A DNA stretch of 45,685 nucleotides, taken from Nitrospirota bacterium. GTDB lineage: Bacteria; Nitrospirota; Thermodesulfovibrionia; Thermodesulfovibrionales; JdFR-88. The notes under the pieces were generated by a model. That model was not told where the DNA came from, ran no database searches, and saw only the letters and a list, made by a program, of their open reading frames with translations. Positions 3,873-19,594 of the stretch are shown here, in pieces (within the stretch, counting starts at the first letter, position 1; every line of letters begins with the position of its first letter). The DNA is taken from NCBI GenBank assembly GCA_021789555.1, contig JAJYJK010000018.1, forward strand, positions 1 to 45,685. The letters are read 5' to 3'. Position numbers and translations under genes: made by a program.

Positions 3873-4652
3873 CTAATCGGGCGGAAGTCCCGATAAGGCT
3901 GATGCCTTCGAGACGCGGAGGCATTCGGGACATAGGTCGCCCGGTGAAGGACGGCCCTGTCCGGAGGTCTTCGCGTTTACATAATCCGCCTGCTTCGGGG
4001 TTACAAAGAGGCGGCCGCAATTGCGGCATTCAACAAGGGGCAGATCGCTTATCACGCGCTCGTTTACGAATATGCGGCGCCTTCCGCCCTCGTCCAGCAT
4101 CCTGATGGCTCCCGTCGGGCAGAGGTTCGCGCACGAGCCGCAGCCTATGCACAGGGACGAGGATTTTTCGAACTCCGCCGTCACATGCCTGCCCTGGCCG
4201 CGCCTGGCGAAGACTATCGCGGAGGCGCCAATCTTCCCTGTGCAGGCGCGCACGCAGATTCCGCATCGCAGGCAATTGTCCGGCTCACCCTGGGCGGCTT
4301 TGAAGCGCGTACCTTCCACGCCGAAGCGGGCGGCCATCTCCAAAAGGGGTTTTGTACGGGGGCTTCGGGCAATGAGTAGCTCGAAGAGTATCTTCCGCGT
4401 CTTTACCACAAGCGGGCTTTCGGTATTGATTGCCATCCCGTCCGCGGCTTTTGCATTGCAGCTTGTTATTAGCGAGGGTTTCAGCACCGGCCCGCTCGCC
4501 TCAACGATGCAAAGCCTGCATGCCCCGTAGGGGCCAAGGGCCTCATGATAGCAAAGGGTGGGTATATCTACGCCCGCCGCCCTGGCCGCTTCAAGAACAG
4601 TTGCGCCGGGGGCGGTCTCCAGTTCTTTTCCGTTAAGGGTTATTTCCGCCAT
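3873..4652 (-). CDS. NuoG-N-terminal/HoxU-like iron-sulfur subunit
   Basis: This 259-residue protein probably wires electrons between the flavin subunit and the molybdoenzyme. Its N-terminal plant-type [2Fe-2S] domain has Cys34, Cys45, Cys48 and Cys65. A NuoG-type linker follows, then two [4Fe-4S] motifs (CLRCGICVRACTG and CIGCGSCANLCPTG). After residue ~195 there is an extra CRNCG ... CPEC pair spaced like a zinc ribbon, which typical HoxU/HydC proteins lack. I chose ATG at 4652 (MAEITLNG), five bases after the stop of the NuoF-like gene, rather than the frame start at 4709 inside that gene. It is last in the operon. Similar subunits occur with NAD-linked hydrogenases and formate dehydrogenases. 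Confidence 0.85.
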   Translation of the reverse strand: MAEITLNGKELETAPGATVLEAARAAGVDIPTLCYHEALGPYGACRLCIVEASGPVLKPSLITSCNAKAADGMAINTESPLVVKTRKILFELLIARSPRTKPLLEMAARFGVEGTRFKAAQGEPDNCLRCGICVRACTGKIGASAIVFARRGQGRHVTAEFEKSSSLCIGCGSCANLCPTGAIRMLDEGGRRRIFVNERVISDLPLVECRNCGRLFVTPKQADYVNAKTSGQGRPSPGDLCPECLRVSKASALSGLPPD

Positions 4653-4657
4653 ATCCT

Positions 4658-6436
4658 CTATGCCTTGGACACGGCCCCGAACTTGCAGGAGTCGAGGCAC
4701 GCGCCGCATTTAATGCACTTATCGGGATCGACAGTGTGCGGTTTCTTTTTCTGGCCGGTAATCGCCCCCTGGGGGCAGTTTCTTAGACACATGCCGCAAC
4801 CCTTGCATCTGTTCTCATCTATACGGAAATTGATAAGGGCGCGGCATGCGGCCGCCGGACACTTTTTCTCGAATATGTGCGCGTCGTACTCGTGCCTGAA
4901 ATATTTCAAAGTGGAGAGGACCGGGTTTGACGCCGTCTTTCCGAGGCCGCAAAGCGAGGCCTCCTTCATCGCGGCGCATATCTCTTCCAGCATGGTTATA
5001 TGCTCCGGCGTGCCCTCGCCCCTGGTTATCTCCTCCAGAAGGCGCACCATCTCCTTTGTGCCCTCGCGGCACGGGGTGCACTGGCCGCAGGATTCGTCCA
5101 TGCAGAATGAAAGGAAGAACCTGGCCACGTCCACCATGCAGGTGTCCTCGTCCATTACGACCATCCCGCCGGAGCCCATTATGGAGCCAAGCGCGCCAAG
5201 GCTTTCGTAATCGACCGGGGTTTCTATGTAGTCGGCCGTGATGCACCCGCCCGAGGGGCCTCCCGTCTGCACGGCCTTCAATTTTTTGCCGTCCGGCACG
5301 CCCCCTCCGATATCGTAAATGATCTCTTTGAGGGGCATCCCCATCGGCACTTCCACAAGCCCCGTGTTTTTTATCTTTCCCACAAGCGAGAATATCTTTG
5401 TGCCTTTGGATTTTTCAGAACCTATGCCGCTGAACCAGGGCGCGCCGTTATTGATAATCTTTGGCACAGTGGCCCACGTCTCCACGTTATTTATATTGGT
5501 GGGCATGCCCCAAAGCCCCTTGTTGGCCGGAAAGGGCGGCTTGGGACGCGGCTCGCCTATCTGCCCCTCCAATGAGGCTATAAGGGCCGTCTCCTCCCCG
5601 CATACAAAAGCGCCGGCGCCAAGGCCGATACGGATGTCGAAATCGCACCCGGAGCCCTGGATGTCCTTGCCCAGCCAGCCGCTCTCCCGCGCCTGCCCTA
5701 TGGCCCGTTTCAGGCGCTCGACCGCAAGCGGGTACTCGGCGCGTATATATACGTAACCCTCGTTTGCACCGATGGCGAAGGCCCCGATGAGCATGCCTTC
5801 AATCACCGAATGCGGGTTTCCCTCCACCACGGACCGGTCCATGAATGCGCCGGGGTCGCCCTCGTCGGCGTTGCAGATGACGCATTTTCGTGTCCCCGGG
5901 GCCTTGCGGCAGAACTCCCATTTCATGCCGGTGGGGAACCCGGCCCCGCCCCTGCCCCGCAGGCCGGACTTCTTTATCTCATTTATGATTTCCTCGGGGT
6001 GGAGCTTTAAAAGCGCCTTTGCCGCGGCCTTGTAGCCGCCATGCTCCATATAAGAGCCTATCTCTTCGGGGTCGATGATGCCGCACTCGGCCAGGACCAG
6101 CTTGTGCTGCTTGCCGTGGAAGGTGGCGTATTCCGGCCCGACGGCCCATTCCATTACCGGATTGCCTTGCAGGATATGCTCGTCCACTATGCGGGGGGCC
6201 ATGCCGGCGCTTATATTCTGATATGTCCGGGTCTTGCCGGCGGCGGTAACGTCCACCAGCACGTCCTTCGCGCAAAAGCCCCGGCAGCCGACCTTATGCA
6301 CCTCGCAGCGTTTTTTAAACTCGGCCTCCACCCCCCGGCCCGCAAGCTCGGTCTCAAACGCCTTTATCACGTCCAGCGCACCCGCCGCCATTCCGCCCGT
6401 GCCCACGCATACGCTTATGATTACCTTCTCATTCAT
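4658..6436 (-). CDS. NuoF/HydB-like NAD(P)H- and FMN-binding subunit
   Basis: This is a 592-residue diaphorase subunit of the three-part kind seen in HndC/HydB/HylB proteins: an N-terminal thioredoxin-like ferredoxin domain (1-95), a 51-kDa complex I core with the FMN/NAD loop GRGGAGFPTGMKW (about residue 173) and the N3-cluster motif ESCGQCTPCREG, then a C-terminal two-[4Fe-4S] ferredoxin (CKGCGMCLRNCPQG, CIKCGACLDSC). It should pass electrons between NAD(P)H and the iron-sulfur partners. In the N-terminal domain the second cluster Cys of the usual C-x4-C is Gly15. Cys10, Cys44, Cys51 and Cys55 are present. It overlaps nuoE-like by 8 bp. Subunits of this architecture occur in electron-bifurcating enzymes, but bifurcation here is only a possibility. 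Confidence 0.9.
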   Translation of the reverse strand: MNEKVIISVCVGTGGMAAGALDVIKAFETELAGRGVEAEFKKRCEVHKVGCRGFCAKDVLVDVTAAGKTRTYQNISAGMAPRIVDEHILQGNPVMEWAVGPEYATFHGKQHKLVLAECGIIDPEEIGSYMEHGGYKAAAKALLKLHPEEIINEIKKSGLRGRGGAGFPTGMKWEFCRKAPGTRKCVICNADEGDPGAFMDRSVVEGNPHSVIEGMLIGAFAIGANEGYVYIRAEYPLAVERLKRAIGQARESGWLGKDIQGSGCDFDIRIGLGAGAFVCGEETALIASLEGQIGEPRPKPPFPANKGLWGMPTNINNVETWATVPKIINNGAPWFSGIGSEKSKGTKIFSLVGKIKNTGLVEVPMGMPLKEIIYDIGGGVPDGKKLKAVQTGGPSGGCITADYIETPVDYESLGALGSIMGSGGMVVMDEDTCMVDVARFFLSFCMDESCGQCTPCREGTKEMVRLLEEITRGEGTPEHITMLEEICAAMKEASLCGLGKTASNPVLSTLKYFRHEYDAHIFEKKCPAAACRALINFRIDENRCKGCGMCLRNCPQGAITGQKKKPHTVDPDKCIKCGACLDSCKFGAVSKA

Positions 6437-6881
6437 ATTTCTTGAGCGCTTCCTTTGCGTTCTTGGGGGTCATCTTGCCGTAGGTCTGGTTATCAACCAC
6501 CATGACCGGGGCAAGGCTGCACGCCCCCACACATCGAACCGCCCCGATGGAAAACCGCATATCGGGGGTTGTCTCGCCTTCCCTGGCCCCCAGTTCCCGT
6601 TCTATTTCCGTGAGCACCCGCTCGGAGCCCTTTACATGACAGGCGGTGCCCAGGCATACGTGCACCTGGTGCCGCCCTTTGGGGGTGAGGCTGAAAAAGT
6701 GATAAAAAGTGGCTATGCTGTAAAGCCTTGTGACCGGCACGCCCGTTTTGGAGGCGAGCTGCCGGAGGGCCTCTTCAGGCAGGTAATGGCAGACGGACTG
6801 GACCTCGTGCAAAATCGAGATGATGGTGCTTTCAGGTTCGGGATAACGAGCGAGTATCCCGTCCAGTTCCTTTAAATCCAT
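6429..6881 (-). CDS. NuoE-like [2Fe-2S] thioredoxin-fold subunit
   Basis: This is a 150-residue homologue of the 24-kDa subunit of complex I and of HndA/HydC-type proteins. A four-helix N-terminus is followed by a thioredoxin-like [2Fe-2S] domain with Cys76, Cys81, Cys117 and Cys121 (CLGTAC, CVGAC), all four ligands present. It forms the diaphorase core with the NuoF-like protein encoded immediately downstream. Start ATG at 6881 has AGAGG eight bases upstream. The stop overlaps the next start by 8 bp, which suggests translational coupling. Confidence 0.93.
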   Translation of the reverse strand: MDLKELDGILARYPEPESTIISILHEVQSVCHYLPEEALRQLASKTGVPVTRLYSIATFYHFFSLTPKGRHQVHVCLGTACHVKGSERVLTEIERELGAREGETTPDMRFSIGAVRCVGACSLAPVMVVDNQTYGKMTPKNAKEALKKYE

Positions 6882-6903
6882 ATAAGACCTCTTTCCATTG
6901 CTA

Positions 6904-7332
6904 TCAGCTTATGATGTAATCCTTCAGATGGTGTATCTCCGCGTGCAGGTTTCCTATTTGCGACTGAACAACGTCCCTTATGGAGAGCATGCCCACCACC
7001 TTGCCATTGTCGCTTACGGGCAGATGTCTTATCCCTTTCTGTATCATTACAGACATTACATCGCAAAGCTCCTCATCCGGCTCGGCCACAATAAGATCGG
7101 AGGTCATCGCGTCCTTAAGGAGGACCGAGTCGAAGGGGCTGCCGTTTGTATTCACGTAACAGCGCACGATGTCGCGCTCCGTGAAGATGCCCACGGGCTT
7201 GCCATCCTCTGTCACTACCAGGGAGCCTATATGCCTGGCGTTCATGGACCTTATTGCGTCCTCGACGCTGTTGCCGGATGCGATGGAGACCACGTCCTTT
7301 CCCTTCGCTTCTAAAAGTTCTTTTACGGTCAT
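6904..7332 (-). CDS. Paired CBS-domain protein
   Basis: This 142-residue soluble protein consists of one CBS pair (Bateman module): repeat 1 with ARHIGSLVVTEDGKPVGIFTERD (shown in part: HIGSLVV, GIFTERD) and repeat 2 with KGIRHLPV and GMLSIRD. CBS pairs usually bind adenine nucleotides (AMP, ATP, NAD or SAM) and regulate partner enzymes. No other domain is fused, so it is probably a nucleotide-sensing regulatory subunit or accessory of the oxidoreductase. It sits between the ferredoxin subunit gene and the NuoE-like gene (56 and 22 bp gaps). Start ATG at 7332 follows CAGGAG. Confidence 0.9.
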   Translation of the reverse strand: MTVKELLEAKGKDVVSIASGNSVEDAIRSMNARHIGSLVVTEDGKPVGIFTERDIVRCYVNTNGSPFDSVLLKDAMTSDLIVAEPDEELCDVMSVMIQKGIRHLPVSDNGKVVGMLSIRDVVQSQIGNLHAEIHHLKDYIIS

Positions 7333-7388: not shown

Positions 7389-7901
7389 TTAAAAGGGCTT
7401 GCCGGTTAAAAACGTCTCGCGGGCGGACCTTTCTCTCCTTATTTTGGTGCTCTCCTCCGGGGAGACCCATTTCAGCGCCCCGGTGACGCAGCCCGTAACA
7501 CAGGCAGGCTTAAGCCCCTCGTCCACCCGGTGGCGGCAGTAATCGCATTTAAACGCCCTATGGGTCTCTTTATTCCACTGCGGCACGCCCCACGGGCAGG
7601 CCGTGATGCAGGACTTGCACCCCACGCACAGCGACTGATCGATGAAAACGATGCCGTCCTTTTCACGTTTCTGCACGGCCCCGGTCGGGCAGGCGGACAG
7701 ACACCACGGCTTCTCGCAGTGAAAGCAGGGCATGAAGACGAAATGCATCCTCGGGACATTGTCTATGACCTTTGGCCCCACGGGCACTATCATGCTGAGG
7801 CGCGGCCCCGCGGGGACATCGTTTTCGGTCTTGCAGTGCACCTCGCAGGCCCGGCAGCCGATACACCTCTTCTGATCCTGGTATATGTAAAAATCACTCA
7901 T
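7389..7901 (-). CDS. Four-cluster ferredoxin subunit (PsrB/PhsB/DmsB-like)
   Basis: This 170-residue electron-transfer subunit normally pairs with a molybdopterin catalytic subunit. Four cysteine motifs typical of DmsB/PsrB proteins are present: CIGCRACEVHC, CFHCEKPWCLSACPTG, CVGCKSCITACPWG, and CDYC followed by PACVTGC. It has no signal peptide, as expected for a cytoplasmic complex or for a partner of a Tat-exported enzyme. The catalytic gene next door also lacks an export signal. I start it at ATG 7901, seven bases after GAGGAGG, because the preceding in-frame codon is TTG. It begins 12 bases after the molybdoenzyme stop codon. Confidence 0.92.
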   Translation of the reverse strand: MSDFYIYQDQKRCIGCRACEVHCKTENDVPAGPRLSMIVPVGPKVIDNVPRMHFVFMPCFHCEKPWCLSACPTGAVQKREKDGIVFIDQSLCVGCKSCITACPWGVPQWNKETHRAFKCDYCRHRVDEGLKPACVTGCVTGALKWVSPEESTKIRRERSARETFLTGKPF

Positions 7902-7913
7902 CAAAATCCTCCT

Positions 7914-10010
7914 CTAAACGCGCTTCACCGAGACGGTGCACTCGGTAAGCGGGCAGTTGCCGCCCACAGAAACCTTCAGGAGCCCCTTTTGAAGCCGGAT
8001 ATCGCTGGCCCCCTTGCCATATGACCTGCTCCTCACCGGGACGGTGTCTCCGAACCCGTGCAGCATGAAGACAGCCTCGGGGTGGATATAATCGATGAGT
8101 TTCGCCCTGATCCTCTGCGCCGGGGCGTTCTCAACTGCCGGGTTCCCCGCGCTTAACTCCACCATATCGCCGTCCTTTATTCCGAGCTTCGCCGCCTGGG
8201 CGGTATTGATCCATAATTCGTTTTCCGGGGCAAGCTCGTTTAGAAGTGGGTTATTCGAGGTGGTGCGCCCCTGGGTGTGGACGGCCACCTTGCTTGTAAC
8301 CAGCCTGAAACTGCCCTCGGCCGGTTTCTCCGGCCTTTCAAACGGTTTGAACGACGGCACCCCGGCCTTCTCCAGCTTTTCGCTGAAAAACTCTATCTTT
8401 CCAGATGGGGTTTTGAATTTCAGTCCGTCTTTGCGGTCGAACCATATCGGCTCTTTCGCAAGCCCGACAAAACCCTTCGCCCTGAAATCCTCCGGCTTTA
8501 CGCCGGTGCCTTCGAGCTGCCAGGCTATCAGGTCCTCGACTGTCTCATACGGAAAGTACTGTCCAATCCCCATTCTTTTGGCAAGTTCCCTGAATATATA
8601 AGAACGCGGCCTGGAGTCGAACCGGGGCTCGACTGCCTTGTTGCGGAATATCAGAGCGGGTTTCAGGCCGTTTCTGGCTATAACGTGGTCTGTGCGCTCC
8701 AGATACGTGCTTTCGGGCAGTATCACATCCGAGTACCAGCCGGTCTCGCTGTAGTTCACGTCTATCGAAACAAGGAGGTCCAGATTGTCAAACGCCTTCT
8801 TCGTCTGTTCCGGGTCGGGGAGCGAGGCCAGCGGGTCGTGCCGCATGACAATATAAGCCTTTACCGGGTAAGGGTCTTCGTTCAAAATGGCGTGGGGTAT
8901 AAGCTGGGCCATCCCCCACTGGGCGCCTATATGCGGGTATTTCGTCCCCGCGCCATCGAAGCGCTCGCCCTTTGGCTTCGGGACCTGGCCAAGAAGGGTC
9001 CTCAGTTTCACGCCGACATTGCCCAGACCCTTGTTTATGTATATCCCGCCCTTGGCTTCAAACGAGCCCATCATGGCATTGAGGGCATATATGGAGCGGC
9101 GCAGATAGAAGTCGTCGGACCGCCATGCCGTCATCCAGCCGGGGTGGAAGATCACCGACGGCTTGGCCGCAGCGGCCTCATGCGCTATCCTGGTTATGTC
9201 TTTTGCCGGTATGCCCGTCTCTGTCCCGGCCCACTCGGGCGTATATTGAGAGGTGAATTTTTTCAGTTCCTCAAAACCCGCGGTCCACCGCTCCACATAT
9301 TGCGCATCATAGAGTTGCTCACGGATAATCGTGTTTATCAGGGCCAGGTTCAGGGCGTAGTCCGTCCCCGGCCTTATGATATGTAACCTGTCTGCCTTGG
9401 CGGCGGTATAGTTCCAGCGGACGTCTATGCAGACCATTTTGCCGCCCGCCTCGAGCATGTCTATGACATTTCTGGCCTCCCCCGTGTCCAATGACTCCAG
9501 CAGGTTTCGCCCGTATACCACCATGTGCTTGCAGTTCTTGTAATCGTAACCCATACCGTTACGCGCGTACCCTGTGACGGACATATTGGCGTTATGAACG
9601 CTGTTTGAGCATGTGGCATGGTGGTTCACGTAATTCGGGGAGCCGATTGCGGCGATGAAGCTCTTCTGGAAATCGGTGATAGGCCCGCCCCTGTCACTAA
9701 GTATTATGGCCTTCGCGCCATGTTTTTCGATTACCGCTTTTAATTTATTGGCTATCAAATCGAGGGCCTCTTCCCAGGTCGCCTTCTTCCATTTGCCCGA
9801 GCCCCTCCCGCCGTCCCGTATCATCGGGTATTGCGGGCGCTCGTCATCGTATTCGAATGCCTTTCCGGACGCTCCCCTTGGGCAAAGCTGCTGCCCGCCC
9901 AGGATGTGGGGGTTTCCCCAGATGTGCCTTACCGCGCCGTCTTCCACCTCCACCTCTATAGGGCATTTCACGGTGCACATGGCGCAGATCGAATATACCG
10001 TTTCTCTCAT
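7914..10010 (-). CDS. Molybdopterin oxidoreductase, PsrA/PhsA (thiosulfate/polysulfide reductase) type, cytoplasmic
   Basis: This 698-residue bis-MGD enzyme opens with a [4Fe-4S]-binding site (CAMCTVKC and LCPRGASGK). The likely Mo-ligand segment is GSPNYVNHHATCSNS, where the Cys is the expected ligand in PsrA/PhsA-type enzymes. The C-terminal molydopterin-binding part contains HTQGRTTSNNPLLNEL, typical of thiosulfate/polysulfide/tetrathionate reductases. No twin-arginine signal precedes the cluster domain, so it should stay in the cytoplasm, unlike classical PhsA/PsrA. I start it at ATG 10010 (GGAGA just upstream). A longer in-frame TTG start at 10076 would place a strong hairpin inside the coding region. 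The substrate is not determined by sequence; a sulfur oxyanion or polysulfide is likely from the family and the TauE-like neighbours. Confidence 0.85.
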   Translation of the reverse strand: MRETVYSICAMCTVKCPIEVEVEDGAVRHIWGNPHILGGQQLCPRGASGKAFEYDDERPQYPMIRDGGRGSGKWKKATWEEALDLIANKLKAVIEKHGAKAIILSDRGGPITDFQKSFIAAIGSPNYVNHHATCSNSVHNANMSVTGYARNGMGYDYKNCKHMVVYGRNLLESLDTGEARNVIDMLEAGGKMVCIDVRWNYTAAKADRLHIIRPGTDYALNLALINTIIREQLYDAQYVERWTAGFEELKKFTSQYTPEWAGTETGIPAKDITRIAHEAAAAKPSVIFHPGWMTAWRSDDFYLRRSIYALNAMMGSFEAKGGIYINKGLGNVGVKLRTLLGQVPKPKGERFDGAGTKYPHIGAQWGMAQLIPHAILNEDPYPVKAYIVMRHDPLASLPDPEQTKKAFDNLDLLVSIDVNYSETGWYSDVILPESTYLERTDHVIARNGLKPALIFRNKAVEPRFDSRPRSYIFRELAKRMGIGQYFPYETVEDLIAWQLEGTGVKPEDFRAKGFVGLAKEPIWFDRKDGLKFKTPSGKIEFFSEKLEKAGVPSFKPFERPEKPAEGSFRLVTSKVAVHTQGRTTSNNPLLNELAPENELWINTAQAAKLGIKDGDMVELSAGNPAVENAPAQRIRAKLIDYIHPEAVFMLHGFGDTVPVRSRSYGKGASDIRLQKGLLKVSVGGNCPLTECTVSVKRV

Positions 10011-10023
10011 TTCTCCGTTCTCC

Positions 10024-10066
10024 GCGGGGGCCCTTCCCGGCGGCCTGCCGCCGCGGGAGGGCCCGC
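10024..10066 (-). promoter_or_regulatory. Long GC hairpin between transporter and enzyme genes
   Basis: Arms GCGGGGGCCC-TTCCCGGCGG and CCGCCGCGGGAGGGCCCGC pair around a four-base loop, with a few bulges, directly upstream of the molybdoenzyme ribosome-binding site and inside the 82-bp spacer after the small TauE gene. There is no following T-run on the minus strand, so it is not a standard terminator. It could be an RNA-processing or stability element that sets the ratio of enzyme to transporter. Confidence 0.5.
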
Positions 10067-10092
10067 CTTTTATCAAAGTTTCTGAAAAAAAA

Positions 10093-10494
10093 CTATTTCG
10101 GCGTTGGGATCACGTTTATGAGCATGAGCCCAAGGATCAAAAGCCCGACGACGGCCACCCTTTTAATAACAAGCGGGTTCAGGCGTTTGGCAATCTTGGG
10201 GCCTATCATGCCGCCCAGTATCGCGCCTGCGGCCATAAGCCCGAAAAGCATGAAATCCACGTTCCCGAAACTGATAACCCTTGAGGTCGCCATGGCCGTA
10301 TTGAAGAATATCGCCAGAAGCGAGCTCCCAACGACGACGTACATCGGGAGCCCGAGCACTACCGTCATGAGCGGCACCATGAAGGGCCCGCCGCCAAAAC
10401 CGAACATGCTCGACATGATGGCTATGAGGAAGCCGCCGGTGCAGGCAACCACAACATTGACCTTGTATTCATTTCCCCAGAAATCTATTTTCAT
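10093..10494 (-). CDS. Half-size TauE/SafE-family permease (DUF81)
   Basis: This membrane protein of 133 residues has about four transmembrane helices and one copy of the family signature, FGFGGGPFMVPL, followed by YVVVGSSLLAIFFN and an amphipathic GPKIAKRLNP segment. TauE/SafE proteins (export of sulfite/organosulfonates and similar anions) normally have two such halves in one chain of about 250-280 residues. The gene immediately upstream encodes the other half, so the two products probably form a heterodimer. Start ATG at 10494 follows AAGGAGAG. The spacing to the upstream gene is 15 bp. Confidence 0.85.
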   Translation of the reverse strand: MKIDFWGNEYKVNVVVACTGGFLIAIMSSMFGFGGGPFMVPLMTVVLGLPMYVVVGSSLLAIFFNTAMATSRVISFGNVDFMLFGLMAAGAILGGMIGPKIAKRLNPLVIKRVAVVGLLILGLMLINVIPTPK

Positions 10495-10509
10495 TTGGTC
10501 TCTCCTTCC

Positions 10510-11733
10510 TTAAGCGGTTTTTGGGGCGGCTACGGTCTTAGCGGCCGCATCGGCCTGGGCACGCTTCTTGTACTCTTTCAGTATGGCCTGCTCTTTCTTG
10601 TTGTTTGCAACGCGCCCGGGCGTCGTCTGCCAGTACATAATGGCGGCAAGTATTATAAGCACCCAGCCGAATAGAAATTTGAACTGGCTCAAGGTGATGA
10701 TCTCCGTGAGTTTCGGGCCTATGAAGCCGCCCACCAGCATCGCAAGGCCGACGCTTATGCCCAGTTTCCAATTTATGAATTTTATCTTCGAATAGTTGTA
10801 TATGCCTGTGCCCTGGCTGAAGAGGACAGAGGGCAGCACCGATCCCGCTACCACGGTGTGCGGCAGGCCGTAGATGAAAAGCAGAAGCGGGGTCAGAATA
10901 AAGCCGCCCCCCGCGCCTATGAGGACGCCGAAAGTGCAAACTACAAGCGAGAGGAGGAACGGGCCGATGATGCCCATGCTCTGCCCGGCGGTGGAGAAGT
11001 AAAAACGCCCAAAGGAAAGATTGTGCGTGAATGTGACAGGGGCGCTTACTGTATCCTTATCGACCGCGGCGGTCACCGTATAGGCGCCATTGGGTGCGCT
11101 TTCGGGCAGCTTGTAAGTAGCCGAAAACGTGCCATCCGGGTTCACGTTCACTGTTGGGGAAAAGATTCTTTCAGGCCAGCGGTAGCGCGTCTTTAGAAGT
11201 GGCATCGTGGCCTTTTTTGAATCCGCGCCGTCCATCGCCGGAAGGACATTGCCTTTGGAGCCCATTATCGTGGCCAGGATAGAGGCCTGATACCTCTGCA
11301 CATCGGCCTTTGCCGGAATGAGATAGGCGCAAACGGCCCCGCAATTTTTAAGCATTGCCCCCACACTCCATTTTTTGCCGAGTTTCTGCTGGGCCTGGAA
11401 TTCCATGGCGTCGCTCGTGGGCAGGAGCATCGTGTAAGCGGCGGGGATGTCCTTTGTCGTATAGAAGATGTAGGGCTTTTTGCCCGTCTTGGGGTCCGTT
11501 TTAGTGTCCAGGCGCGAGACCTTCACCTTATTTTCCGAGGCGATCTCGATGTATACGGGCTTCCCTTTCGGGGCCGTGCCCTTGATCGTTACTGTCTGGC
11601 TGCCGGTATAGACCTCCTTATCAAGGCTCACTGTTATCCTGGCCTGCCCGGCTGACACCGGACCGCTGGCAAAAAGAAGAGCGGGCAAGCCAAGTACAAG
11701 CACCGCCACCAGCAAAACTACTTTCTTTCTCAT
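10510..11733 (-). CDS. TauE/SafE-type half-permease with large exported N-terminal domain
   Basis: This 407-residue protein has a signal peptide/anchor (residues 1-27, VVLLVAVLVLGLPALLFA) and then an extracytoplasmic part of about 210 residues. The latter starts with a beta-rich Ig-like segment (VTIKGTAPKGKPVYIEIA), contains a Cys pair in KNCGAVCAY, and ends in a second beta-rich stretch (DGTFSATYKLPESAPNGAYTV). From about residue 250 come four membrane helices with one TauE/SafE signature, GAGGGFILTPLLL. The C-terminus is charged and Ala/Lys-rich. It is first in the operon behind GGGAGG and a long leader. The exported domain may capture or sense the substrate; that role is inferred. It is not a full TauE chain. 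Confidence 0.82.
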   Translation of the reverse strand: MRKKVVLLVAVLVLGLPALLFASGPVSAGQARITVSLDKEVYTGSQTVTIKGTAPKGKPVYIEIASENKVKVSRLDTKTDPKTGKKPYIFYTTKDIPAAYTMLLPTSDAMEFQAQQKLGKKWSVGAMLKNCGAVCAYLIPAKADVQRYQASILATIMGSKGNVLPAMDGADSKKATMPLLKTRYRWPERIFSPTVNVNPDGTFSATYKLPESAPNGAYTVTAAVDKDTVSAPVTFTHNLSFGRFYFSTAGQSMGIIGPFLLSLVVCTFGVLIGAGGGFILTPLLLFIYGLPHTVVAGSVLPSVLFSQGTGIYNYSKIKFINWKLGISVGLAMLVGGFIGPKLTEIITLSQFKFLFGWVLIILAAIMYWQTTPGRVANNKKEQAILKEYKKRAQADAAAKTVAAPKTA

Positions 11734-12282: not shown

Positions 12283-13941
12283 TTGAACTGGCTTAGTTAC
12301 CATATCGGCGAGGAATCCTTAATATCCGTTTCATGTTTTTACCTTGGGGTGAAGGCTTTCCGGGCGTACAAGGCAAATTCCGGCCACCTTGGCAAGGAGG
12401 AAAAAAGCAGGATAGCCCTTATGAGCTCCGGTTTTGCCCTGATGGGTATGAGTAGCGCCATTCATGCCTTCATCCATTTAGCCGGCTTTGACGAAAACCT
12501 GCTTTACCAGACACTCCTTGGCTACTGTCTGGGGTTTCTCGTCCTGATAGCGGCCATAGCGGCAGACAATCCCCAAAGGTTCAGGCTTGCGCCGCTTTTA
12601 TATCTGCCGACCCTTTTTTTACTGCAGCCGGGCCTCTACAGCAGGTTCCCTCTTTTTGCCGTATTCAGGCCGCTTGCATGGGTTAGCATAGCTTATTTGG
12701 CGGGCCTGCTTTTTCTGCTTCAAATAGCCGTCTATTATCATTCCAGGGCGCAGAGGCATCTTTATACATCCCTTGGATGGGCCTTTCTGTGCATATCCTC
12801 GGTAATACTTTTTTTTCCGGCCGGGATAGGCTCCAAAATGTGGATTTATGGGCACCTCCTGAGGCCCCTCGGCTTTTTCATGCTGCTTGCGGGCATCAGG
12901 CTGGAGGACTTTTCAGGCATGAAAAACAGCCTGCTTTATAAGACGCTTGCCACTTTCGGCCTGTTTTCACTGGCGCCCCTTGTTTTTTTCAGCACTGTGT
13001 TTTTCTACGCGAACGAAGAGCACGTTTATTTTCTGGACAAGAGGCTCACTTTCTTTCTGCTCATCGCGGCCATGCTGGGAACGGCGCTCGCCTTTACGCT
13101 GGGGCTTATCTTCAGCCTTATAAAACCCATTATCCGCCTGAAGGATTCGGTAAACAGGCTTGCGGACGAGGGTTTCGCCGGGAAGATAGAGGTGAGAAAG
13201 ACAGACGAGATAGGCGAACTCACCAAGGCCTTCAACGAGATGGTATTCAAGCTGGACCAGTCCTTAAGGGAAAGGGACAGGCTGAGCCGGCTGGCCGCTA
13301 CAGGAGAGCTTGCCGCCACGCTCGCGCACGAAATCAAAAACCCCCTGAACTCCATAAGCGGGGCCGCCTCGTACATAGGGGAAAATTTCAAGGGGAGCCT
13401 CATAAATGAATTTCTGAAAATAATCAACACCGAGGCGCTCCGGATAAGCAAGCTCTCGACCGCGCTTCTTAATTTCGCCAAGCCCATGAACCCGGATTTC
13501 CAGCGCTGCGATTTAAACAGGCTGGCAATGGAGACACTCACCCTGCTGGAGGTGGAATTCAGGGAGAAAAATGTTTCCCTGGGAACGAGCTTTGACAAAT
13601 CCCTGCCGGCAGTCAGACTGGACCCAGGCCAGATAAAACAGGTGCTCATAAACCTGCTGATAAACGCGCTGGACGCGGTAAAACAGGGAGGCGTCATACA
13701 GGTCTCGACGAGCGCCTCAAGGGGCGGCGTGCGCTTATCCGTACAGGATAACGGTAAAGGCATAAGCGGGGAGATAATGAAAAACATCTTCAATCCCTTT
13801 TTTACGACCAAGACCCGGGGGGCGGGCATCGGGCTTGCGGTTTGCAAAAAGATCGCAAATGAGCACGGCGGCGACATTTTCTTTGAAAGCGAGGAAGGAA
13901 TGGGCAGCAATTTCGCGCTCTGCATTCCGGTGAAAAGATGA
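12283..13941 (+). CDS. Membrane sensor histidine kinase (NtrB/AtoS-like output)
   Basis: This 552-residue kinase has an N-terminal membrane region of about seven or eight helices (to about residue 225) resembling small-molecule or membrane-state sensor regions. A further helix pair and a HAMP linker follow (LKDSVNRLADEG), then a HisKA domain with His348 in LAHEIKNPLNS, and a HATPase domain with N box (LINALDAV), G1 (DNGKGIS), F box (FFTTKTRGAGIGL) and G2 motifs. No large periplasmic domain is visible. The start is probably TTG at 12283 behind AGGGGG, because a GTG just upstream runs into a stop. It overlaps the regulator gene by 4 bp. Confidence 0.92.
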   Translation: MNWLSYHIGEESLISVSCFYLGVKAFRAYKANSGHLGKEEKSRIALMSSGFALMGMSSAIHAFIHLAGFDENLLYQTLLGYCLGFLVLIAAIAADNPQRFRLAPLLYLPTLFLLQPGLYSRFPLFAVFRPLAWVSIAYLAGLLFLLQIAVYYHSRAQRHLYTSLGWAFLCISSVILFFPAGIGSKMWIYGHLLRPLGFFMLLAGIRLEDFSGMKNSLLYKTLATFGLFSLAPLVFFSTVFFYANEEHVYFLDKRLTFFLLIAAMLGTALAFTLGLIFSLIKPIIRLKDSVNRLADEGFAGKIEVRKTDEIGELTKAFNEMVFKLDQSLRERDRLSRLAATGELAATLAHEIKNPLNSISGAASYIGENFKGSLINEFLKIINTEALRISKLSTALLNFAKPMNPDFQRCDLNRLAMETLTLLEVEFREKNVSLGTSFDKSLPAVRLDPGQIKQVLINLLINALDAVKQGGVIQVSTSASRGGVRLSVQDNGKGISGEIMKNIFNPFFTTKTRGAGIGLAVCKKIANEHGGDIFFESEEGMGSNFALCIPVKR

Positions 13942-15257
13942 CCGGCAACATACTGATTGTCGACGATGAAATCAATACCTTGAAAGTGTTGTCGGCCGTC
14001 CTCAGGAAGGAAAAATATTCCGTTTGCACATCGCTTGCCGCCGAAGAGGCCCTTGCAAAGATGGGGGAGGGGCATTTCGACCTTGTAATTACGGATTATA
14101 AACTGCCGGGCATGAGCGGCGAGGCTTTTCTTGAGACGATAAAGAAAACGAATTCCGGCATCCCCGTCGTTTTACTGACGGCGTATGGCACGATCGAATC
14201 CGCCGTAAACGCGATGAAAAAAGGGGCTTACACCTATTTGACAAAGCCCGTGGATTTAAACATCCTCCAATCGGCGGTAAAAGGCGCGCTCGGGCAGAGG
14301 GATGAAGAGGGCGGCAGCCGGCCGGAGGGCCATGAATTCCTGAATATAATAGGTAAAAGCGGCCCCGTAAGGGAGGTTTTCTCCGTCATTCGCCGGGTGA
14401 GCAAGACGGATGCCGGCATCCTCATACTCGGGGAAAGCGGGACCGGGAAAGAACTCGCCGCAAGGGCCCTGCATTATACTTCGCTGCGCGCGGACAAACC
14501 CTTCATACCGATAGACTGCACTACGATACCCTCCGAACTGATGGAAAGTGAGCTCTTCGGCCACGAAAAGGGCGCTTTTACGGGCGCCTTTGGCGTCAAG
14601 ACGGGTCTGATCGAAATGGCCGGGGGCGGCACTGTCTTCTTCGATGAAGTGGGCGATCTGGATTTCTCCCTCCAGAAAAAACTCCTCAGGTTCCTCCAGG
14701 AAAAGGAGATAAGGAAGATCGGTGGAAAAGACAAGATACAGGTTGACGTGAGGATAATCGCCTCCACAAACAAGAACCTTGAGGAATTGGTGGCCAGCGG
14801 AGAATTCAGGGCTGACCTCTTCTACCGGCTGAACGTGATCACCATAAACATGCCCGCCCTGCGTGAAAGGAAGGAAGATATAGAGCTTCTGGCGTCTCAT
14901 TTCCTGGAGGATTTTAGCAGAAAATACAAAAAATACATTAAAGGGTTCGACCTGGCGGTCCTGGAAATCCTTACGAATTACGAATGGCCCGGCAACGTCA
15001 GGGAACTCCAAAACATAATAGAGAGGACGGTTATTTTCTGTCCTTACGACCGGGTAACATTCGAATGCCTGCCGCGGAAGTTCGTCTTCATGAACAGGGA
15101 AGAGGCGCAGGAGGGGGAATTAATGAATTTAAACGGAATCGAAAAAAGGGCAATTACGAAGGCGCTCGAAGCGGCGGCCTGGAACCAGTCCAAGGCGGCC
15201 TTGCTGCTTGGCATAAGCAGGAAACAATTAAGTACCAAGATGAAAAACCTCTTGTGA
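13938..15257 (+). CDS. Sigma-54-dependent response regulator (NtrC family)
   Basis: This 439-residue protein contains a receiver domain (phosphoacceptor Asp53 in VITDYKLPG, Lys in YLTKPVD), an AAA+ domain with Walker A (GESGTGKE), the sigma-54 contact loop GAFTGA (about residue 213), Walker B (GGTVFFDEVGD) and arginine-finger region (FRADLFYRLNV), and a C-terminal Fis-type helix-turn-helix (NQSKAALLLGISRKQLSTKM). All motifs are intact. Its start codon overlaps the kinase stop (ATGA). The most likely target is the divergent sigma-54 promoter at 11967-11982 through the palindromes at 12091-12140. Confidence 0.95.
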   Translation: MTGNILIVDDEINTLKVLSAVLRKEKYSVCTSLAAEEALAKMGEGHFDLVITDYKLPGMSGEAFLETIKKTNSGIPVVLLTAYGTIESAVNAMKKGAYTYLTKPVDLNILQSAVKGALGQRDEEGGSRPEGHEFLNIIGKSGPVREVFSVIRRVSKTDAGILILGESGTGKELAARALHYTSLRADKPFIPIDCTTIPSELMESELFGHEKGAFTGAFGVKTGLIEMAGGGTVFFDEVGDLDFSLQKKLLRFLQEKEIRKIGGKDKIQVDVRIIASTNKNLEELVASGEFRADLFYRLNVITINMPALRERKEDIELLASHFLEDFSRKYKKYIKGFDLAVLEILTNYEWPGNVRELQNIIERTVIFCPYDRVTFECLPRKFVFMNREEAQEGELMNLNGIEKRAITKALEAAAWNQSKAALLLGISRKQLSTKMKNLL

Positions 15258-18275: not shown

Positions 18276-19594
18276 CAGGCCGTTGAAAAACGCCTTTTTT
18301 CAGCAAACATTCCTTCATTTTGGGATGTCCAAATTTTGTATCCTGCATCCGATATCATTATCTTGAGGTCTTTCGACCTTTTTTCATCTGATATTTTGAT
18401 CTGTTTTTCGCCTTTTACCGCATTCATGCCGTGCCAACCCCAAGATTTCTCATTCTTACCAGATTGTATGCCGCCGCTGAGAAGGTGAAGTGCCATGAGA
18501 CTTTCGTTTTACCCCGGTATTTGATCTTCCTCAGATTGCCAACCGTCTTCATCCACCCAAATATTTCCTCGATCCGCTTCCTGTATTTCTGGCTGATCGC
18601 GTATCCCTCATGCCGGGTTGTTCTTTGGTCTATTGCTGAAGAGCGGTTCTTATCATTCTGTGCTACGTGCGGCGTGGCGTTGAACTCCCTCATCGCCTCT
18701 ACAAAGCCGCGCGTGTCGTAGTTCTTGTCGCCAGCGACTGTTATCCGGTGCGAGCCAGGAATATTTTCCACCATATTTTCTGCCGCTTCGCGTTCCGCCG
18801 TCCCGGTTGCAAGCGTAAGCTCGGTATCAACGATAAGACCATTTCTGTTTTCCATCAGCACATGCCCCATATAAGAGAGCTTGGCTTCCTTCCCTTTGCC
18901 CTTCCTGAATAATCTGCTATCAGGATCGGTTATGGATTCATGGGTCTCGTTAGAGCGTTTCTCCCCATGAAAATCCACCTCGTCATTACGGCCACTTCCA
19001 GCGAGCGGCCCCTGTTTGTCTCTCTTCTGGAAACTCTTGATGGATGCCCAGGCCTCTATCAGCGTCCCGTCTATTGAAAAATGCTCGCTCGAAAGCAATC
19101 CGGCTTTCCCCGCCTGCTCCTGTATTTTTTCCAGGAACGCTTTCGCTATATCCGAGTTTATGAATCTCTCCTGGTTCTGGGAGAATGTTGAATGGTCCCA
19201 TACCTTATCATCTATCGCTAACCCAACAAACCACTTGAAGAGGATGTTGTATCCCAACTGCTCCATGAGCATCCGCACGCTCTTGACCGAGTACAGCGTC
19301 TGCAGCAGCAATGCCTTCATCAATTTCTCTGGAGCTATCGATGGCCTCCCCGTATGGGAATACATCTTCTCAAATGAGGATGACAATTGCTGAAGGGCCT
19401 CTTCCGCCATCTTGCGAATTGGCCTCAGAGGATGGTCCGTCGGCACCACGGATTCCGCTGATAAATAACAAAATATTCCTTCCATTTTTTTGTCACCGCC
19501 GCGCATATCGTCTTCCTCCTCGTTCCGGTATCAGTTGAGGCTGAAAATAATATGCACTATTTATGCCATCCCGAGAGACTTTTTCAACAACCTG
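18276..19594 (-). mobile_element. Complete IS5-type insertion sequence with CTAG target duplication
   Basis: The ends are inverted repeats: left CAGGCCGTTGAAAAACGCC, right (reverse complement) CAGGTTGTTGAAAAAGTCT. They are flanked on both sides by CTAG (18272-18275 and 19595-19598), the YTAR-type 4-bp duplication of the IS5 family. The length is 1,319 bp and the transposase frame is uninterrupted, so this copy looks recent and possibly active, unlike the IS256 remnant 0.8 kb away. Confidence 0.85.
18424..19506 (-). CDS. IS5-family DDE transposase
   Basis: This 360-residue transposase carries the N-terminal InsH-type domain (GRPSIAPEKLMKALLLQTLYSVKS) in part, then DHSTFSQNQERF, a first catalytic Asp in HFSIDGTLIEAW, a second in VAGDKNYDTRGFVEAM, and the acidic third residue region IEEIFGWMKTVGNLRKIKYRG. 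It fills most of the IS between its inverted repeats. Starts are possible at 19506 (MRGGDKKMEG) or seven codons later. No interruption is seen. Confidence 0.9.
   Translation of the reverse strand: MRGGDKKMEGIFCYLSAESVVPTDHPLRPIRKMAEEALQQLSSSFEKMYSHTGRPSIAPEKLMKALLLQTLYSVKSVRMLMEQLGYNILFKWFVGLAIDDKVWDHSTFSQNQERFINSDIAKAFLEKIQEQAGKAGLLSSEHFSIDGTLIEAWASIKSFQKRDKQGPLAGSGRNDEVDFHGEKRSNETHESITDPDSRLFRKGKGKEAKLSYMGHVLMENRNGLIVDTELTLATGTAEREAAENMVENIPGSHRITVAGDKNYDTRGFVEAMREFNATPHVAQNDKNRSSAIDQRTTRHEGYAISQKYRKRIEEIFGWMKTVGNLRKIKYRGKTKVSWHFTFSAAAYNLVRMRNLGVGTA

Follow-up and report, generated by a model that had tools for sequence, protein, structure and literature searches.

A predicted TauE/SafE-family transporter split over two conserved genes in a Nitrospirota bacterium

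The window analysed here is a stretch of 45,685 nucleotides from a Nitrospirota bacterium, and it contains two adjacent genes, A and B, that match the TauE/SafE permease family (Table 1). Against the Pfam TauE profile (PF01925; 237 positions, curated cut-off 32.6 bits), residues 258-377 of A align to profile positions 2-114 (E 1.4e-18, 67.9 bits), and residues 11-124 of B align to positions 123-236 (E 4.7e-23, 82.5 bits). Both matches lie above the cut-off, and together they make up complementary halves of one domain. A sequence-only reading of this DNA had proposed a TauE/SafE permease halved over two genes, one of them carrying an exported domain, and the ORFs and the complementary Pfam halves confirm it. 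The same reading assigned one GxGGG-type signature to each gene, found here as GAGGG in A and GFGGG in B. It also gave the upstream gene a signal peptide, about 210 exported residues and a CxxxC pair, all of which are present in A: the protein begins with a signal-peptide-like helix, and a beta-rich domain with the motif KNCGAVC (Cys131 and Cys135) spans residues ~30-242. Because each of the two repeats has its own gene, in the window as in 80/80 relatives, we classified A/B as a split variant of TauE/SafE. Rfam and tRNA scans of the whole window returned no matches.

Table 1. Positions of genes A and B, their parts, and the genes downstream of B in the window
Feature	Position	Strand	Basis
Gene A: signal peptide, exported domain and N-half of TauE/SafE, 407 aa	10510..11733	-	ORF, Pfam, AF2
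Signal-peptide-like N-terminus of A, residues 1-28	11650..11733	-	sequence; AF2 helix 2-21, then low-confidence linker
Exported MG2/Ig-like domain of A, residues 30-242, helical insertion at about 106-190	11008..11646	-	
Re-entrant helix pair of A, residues 256-288, tip GAGGG	10870..10968	-	AF2 models, VIA-align
Three TM helices of A, residues 292-315, 322-343, 348-369	10627..10860	-	AF2 models, loop charges
Basic C-terminal tail of A, residues 370-407, predicted to be cytoplasmic; corresponds to the linker in the one-chain paralogue	10513..10626	-	
TAA stop of A, then GGAAGGAGAG-ACCAA, Shine-Dalgarno of B	10495..10512	-	
Gene B: C-half of TauE/SafE, 133 aa	10093..10494	-	ORF, Pfam, AF2
FWGNEY motif of B			
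Re-entrant pair of B with GFGGG	10354-10455	-	
Three TM helices of B	10120-10344	-	
PhsA-like molybdopterin oxidoreductase, no Tat signal, co-directional, 16 nt downstream of B	7914..10076	-	
DmsB/PhsB-like 4Fe-4S subunit	7389..7904	-	

A and B lie in the same frame with only the TAA and five codons between them (TAA-GRRDQ), and a six-frame PF01925 scan of the genome merged them into one match across this single stop. A nonsense mutation or a sequencing error therefore had to be excluded. We found that nine homologues from the same taxonomic order (53-56% identity) keep the split as the same two ORFs. A search of named genomes, from which the best 80 of 143 relatives were kept, recovered the pair in Thermodesulfovibrio, Caldimicrobium, other Nitrospirota, Desulfobulbales, Desulfamplus, Syntrophobacteraceae and Ammonifex. 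A is a separate ORF in 80/80 of these best relatives (Nitrospirota, Desulfobacterota, Ammonifex), and B follows in all 77 whose contig continues, after a gap of 2-150 nt (median 23) and almost always with a length of 129-135 aa. The two genes share a frame in 33 of the 77 and differ in frame in 44. A Shine-Dalgarno-like motif precedes B in 77/77, compared with 23% by chance, and the coding sequences of both genes are strongly conserved. The conserved split in relatives ruled out stop-codon read-through or sequence error as its cause.

The two genes also occur together. In 148 genomes of the window's phylum, A was found in 19 and B in 20, the extra B lying 151 nt from a contig end; in 297 genomes of the Desulfobulbus phylum, both were found in the same 23 (23/23). 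A second gene without the first was looked for across these 445 sampled genomes, and this contig-edge B was the only case. Because the split is conserved across sulfur-cycling bacteria, the comparison of sequences indicates that A/B is a genuine transporter in two parts rather than a gene that has been disrupted. Searches of the open literature found no published split TauE, and such a transporter is apparently undescribed there.

The pair was not found in the 11 sampled genomes of the source's own genus and family, and its nearest relatives (60-62%) are in Thermodesulfovibrio sp. N1 and Caldimicrobium. This pattern hints that the pair was acquired horizontally or was lost repeatedly. Two A/B pairs are present in one genome, and one of them belongs to a more diverged subtype.

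A distant one-chain paralogue was identified in three Desulfobacterota genomes (L162, L163 and L164). It resembles A/B in domain order, with a signal peptide, an exported domain, the N-half of TauE, a lysine-rich linker, an FWGE motif and the C-half of TauE, but unlike A/B it is a single polypeptide of 558-568 aa. Its alignment with the read-through of A and B by hhalign extends over 472 columns (E 3.6e-31) and covers the FWGE motif in the N-terminus of B as well as the KKK-rich linker, while the exported domains can be aligned mainly over their first ~50 residues. The break between A and B falls within a linker homologous to that of the paralogue. Since the paralogue shares the linker and the motifs at the break, A and B would together make up one transporter. 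In two of the three genomes (L162 and L164), a gene for a Rex-type redox repressor lies directly upstream of the one-chain gene.

A tree of half-domains placed A with the N-halves and B with the one-chain C-halves (support 0.92 each); its halves are of ~120 residues, its supports modest and some deeper nodes weak, and one FULL_N sequence fell among the C-halves (support 0.02). This grouping suggests that the repeats had diverged before the split, which makes fission likelier than a primitive unfused state. We conclude with good confidence that the split arose by fission and not by primitive separation.

To describe the membrane part, we used AF2 models of one continuous read-through chain, an input in which the proximity of the two halves is forced. 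In the full chain the exported domain was confident (pLDDT about 90) and the membrane part weaker. The membrane part alone, with 60 sequences, reached a pLDDT of 85.4 and a pTM of 0.82, and was low only at the A/B junction. The sequence-only reading had expected about four helices in each gene; a membrane half per gene was borne out, but in the models each half consists of three TM helices and a re-entrant helix pair that carries GxGGG at its tip. With Foldseek alone, no match fell below E 0.001, and PDB sequence searches with the A and B alignments returned nothing useful. VIA-align, in contrast, matched the joined fold to BacA/UppP (6fmt/5oon) with Z 13.5/12.8 over 232-236 residues at an rmsd of 4.2, the next match having Z 5.5. 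Pfam UppP was not among the matches listed for A or B. In BacA, each of two repeats holds a re-entrant pair and three TM helices, and the repeats have opposite orientation (PMC5852022).

Loop charges agree with a BacA-like topology. Over 81 A and 78 B sequences, the mean number of K+R residues was 2.9 in the A TM1-2 loop, 6.7 in the A tail and 4.1 in the B TM2-3 loop, all predicted inside, compared with 1.0 in the A TM2-3 loop and 0.0 in the B TM1-2 loop, both predicted outside. An exported domain outside and BacA-like repeats together place the A tail and the B start in the cytoplasm, and we consider this topology very likely.

The MG2/Ig-like fold is often a structural or docking module. Structure comparison matched the exported domain of A to the MG domains of complement/alpha-2-macroglobulin (Z about 9, 2.2 A, ~91 residues), with other Ig-like folds a small margin below MG2 (Z 7.5-8). 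The MG2-like part is built from residues 30-105 and 190-242, with the helical insertion between them. The fold is thus MG2-like, while the MG2 profile itself (PF01835) scored 25.7 bits, under its curated cut-off of 32.8. PF09608 (alph_Pro_TM) also scored under its cut-off of 24.5, with 13.0-17.1 bits, and TIGR02186 was not among the matches listed for A. However, hhalign of the exported domain against a TIGR02186-type protein gave a probability of 94.9 (E 4e-8), and by this profile comparison the domain is evidently a distant relative of the TIGR02186 family.

The PhsA-like enzyme next to B recurs within 1.2 kb downstream of B in 28 of the 64 relatives with enough sequence, and not in the other 36. 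No Tat signal was seen by eye in those of the relatives' enzymes that were inspected. Further downstream (3873-7332), the window holds genes for a CBS-domain protein and for NuoE-like, NuoF-like and NuoG-N-like (2Fe-2S/4Fe-4S) proteins. These genes suggest that the molybdoenzyme is backed by an NAD-linked electron module. Upstream of A (12283-15257) lie a divergent membrane histidine kinase and a sigma-54 response regulator, and a similar regulator is found near A in 27/80 relatives. A gene for a PhnD/PtxB-like periplasmic binding protein is close to A/B in 11/80, directly behind B in some and ahead of A in others, and a universal stress protein recurs near the pair. At three other loci, the molybdoenzyme cluster has ORFs of 948-972 aa whose beginning looks TorD-like by eye, as in a fusion of chaperone with enzyme. 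The window also contains an IS-type transposase (DUF772 / DDE_Tnp_1; 18424-19506).

The classic role of TauE is sulfite export, opposite in direction to the thiosulfate import proposed here. In Desulfovibrio vulgaris and D. alaskensis, the TauE gene (DVU0251/Dde_0598) is clustered with genes for a histidine kinase, a response regulator and a PtxB-like protein. Mutants of this cluster are nitrate-resistant, and a leaky thiosulfate transporter was proposed (PMC4001038). Loss of TauE, of the PtxB-like binding-protein gene or of rex leads to the same phenotype, and the thiosulfate growth defects of the mutants are preliminary data (PMC4001038). This TauE is of a different subtype, one chain of 320 aa, unlike the split A/B, and the substrate of A/B is therefore approached by analogy. 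Neighbouring genes and Desulfovibrio genetics would favour thiosulfate or sulfite, and that A/B moves some sulfur oxyanion is moderately probable. Import of thiosulfate for a cytoplasmic reductase would be the most economical reading, because the PhsA-like neighbour has no Tat signal and because of the Desulfovibrio TauE genetics; we place it somewhat short of even odds.

A competing reading is that A/B exports sulfite made by the neighbouring thiosulfate/polysulfide reductase, as proposed for Cupriavidus necator TauE. The name and role of the family, as cited in PMC5840216 and PMC3949148, agree with export; PhsA-type enzymes release sulfite, and such an enzyme is the neighbour in the 28 relatives mentioned above. 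However, for sulfate reducers and disproportionators, sulfite in the cytoplasm is a valuable intermediate, a cytoplasmic PhsA-like enzyme requires imported substrate, and nitrate resistance upon loss of the Desulfovibrio TauE fits entry, not exit (PMC4001038). We consider sulfite export rather unlikely.

Taken together, we propose that A and B each supply one of the two inverted-topology repeats in a single TauE/SafE (TSUP) transporter for a sulfur oxyanion, made as separate chains and working with the PhsA-like enzyme, and we give this model as a whole a probability of about 0.78. The transport pathway would form only once A and B assemble, with the GxGGG tip of each re-entrant pair meeting that of its partner near the membrane centre beside the three TM helices of each chain. 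The exported domain of A would lie in the periplasm and the tail of A in the cytoplasm, and B, in the opposite orientation, would start in the cytoplasm. The pair would descend from a one-chain ancestor whose gene broke in the central cytoplasmic linker. The cargo would most likely be thiosulfate, less likely sulfite or tetrathionate, and the partner would be the cytoplasmic PhsA-like molybdoenzyme. Co-occurrence, the 77/77 gene order, the one-chain paralogue and the confident joined fold strongly support the obligate two-chain transporter of the earlier reading, and that A physically assembles with B is highly probable.

It is also conceivable that A and B are two independent transporters in a common operon, each forming a homodimer or a dual-topology dimer. 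Dual-topology homodimers are the presumed ancestors of inverted-repeat transporters, and each half has a complete re-entrant pair and three TM helices. But A and B match complementary profile halves, group separately with N-halves and C-halves in the tree, co-occur almost perfectly and have a one-chain counterpart; their opposite charge bias is clear, which is not dual topology. Independent dimers are accordingly improbable.

The exported domain, which the earlier reading supposed to capture or sense the transported anion, might most likely gate the pathway or dock a periplasmic partner, an assignment that we make tentatively. More doubtful is a specific form of it, in which the MG2-like domain would be a docking platform for the PhnD/PtxB-like oxyanion-binding protein of a binding-protein-assisted secondary transporter. 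If so, the split would let the receptor-bearing half and the plain half be made and assembled separately. The earlier suggestion that the CxxxC pair acts in thiol chemistry on the transported anion has very little probability left: Cys131 and Cys135 are indeed part of the exported domain in this single protein, but among 81 sequences no relative has the pair and 72 exported domains have no cysteine at all, and at the family level we rejected it. A one-chain gene interrupted by a nonsense mutation or by faulty assembly has a negligible chance of being the explanation, since the shared frame, the short gap (one TAA and five codons) and the existence of a one-chain paralogue are outweighed by the split in 80/80 relatives, the Shine-Dalgarno-like motif in 77/77, the 44 out-of-frame pairs and the strong conservation of both coding sequences.

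A small antiparallel dimer, duplicated and fused, is the presumed origin of inverted-repeat transporters. The authors of the BacA structure raised whether isolated repeats could be stable (PMC5852022). A/B seems to be a naturally occurring form of such a protein on two genes, and both one-chain relatives and relatives with a separate exported protein are available for comparison; how the repeats assemble, which topology they take and whether they must be linked covalently are therefore directly testable. The pair further suggests that bacteria which reduce or disproportionate sulfur have a conserved anion transporter that may have been overlooked; in these bacteria, thiosulfate and sulfite transport are poorly assigned.

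A/B may be distinct from the published YTD and MOLY sulfur-disproportionation clusters, whose papers make no mention of a sulfite exporter or SafE. As described, the YTD cluster has YedE, of another family than TauE, and the MOLY enzymes are likely extracellular with a TorD-type chaperone, unlike the molybdoenzyme without a Tat signal next to A/B. Several known systems resemble A/B in part. MamO and MamE of magnetotactic bacteria have an exported domain that is a trypsin-like protease, unlike the MG2/Ig-like domain of A. Like A, they fuse the exported part, called "protease domains", to a TauE domain, which was not described as split (PMC4287615).

Closer in composition is a widespread pair of full-length TauE with a TIGR02186-type exported membrane protein, encoded a few nucleotides behind it in many Desulfobacterota and in Ammonifex; DVU0251-DVU0250 of D. 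vulgaris is possibly such a pair. These TIGR02186/PF09608 pairs also join TauE with an exported domain of related fold, but their TauE is complete in one gene, and the exported domain is encoded by a second gene, with a C-terminal TM helix of its own, instead of being fused. With the one-chain paralogue, TauE with an exported partner thus recurs in three layouts: as a separate gene, in one chain, and split. Compared with BacA/UppP, the predicted fold of A and B is alike in its interdigitated inverted repeats, each with a re-entrant pair and three TM helices; BacA/UppP is one chain and a lipid phosphatase, with 8-10% identity, and the likeness implies no common function. Finally, TauE/SafE proteins (PF01925; TSUP, TC 2.A.102), such as TauE of Cupriavidus necator, share with A/B the profile match and one GxGGG per half, but they are normally one chain, whereas A/B is encoded by two genes with an exported domain on the N-half.
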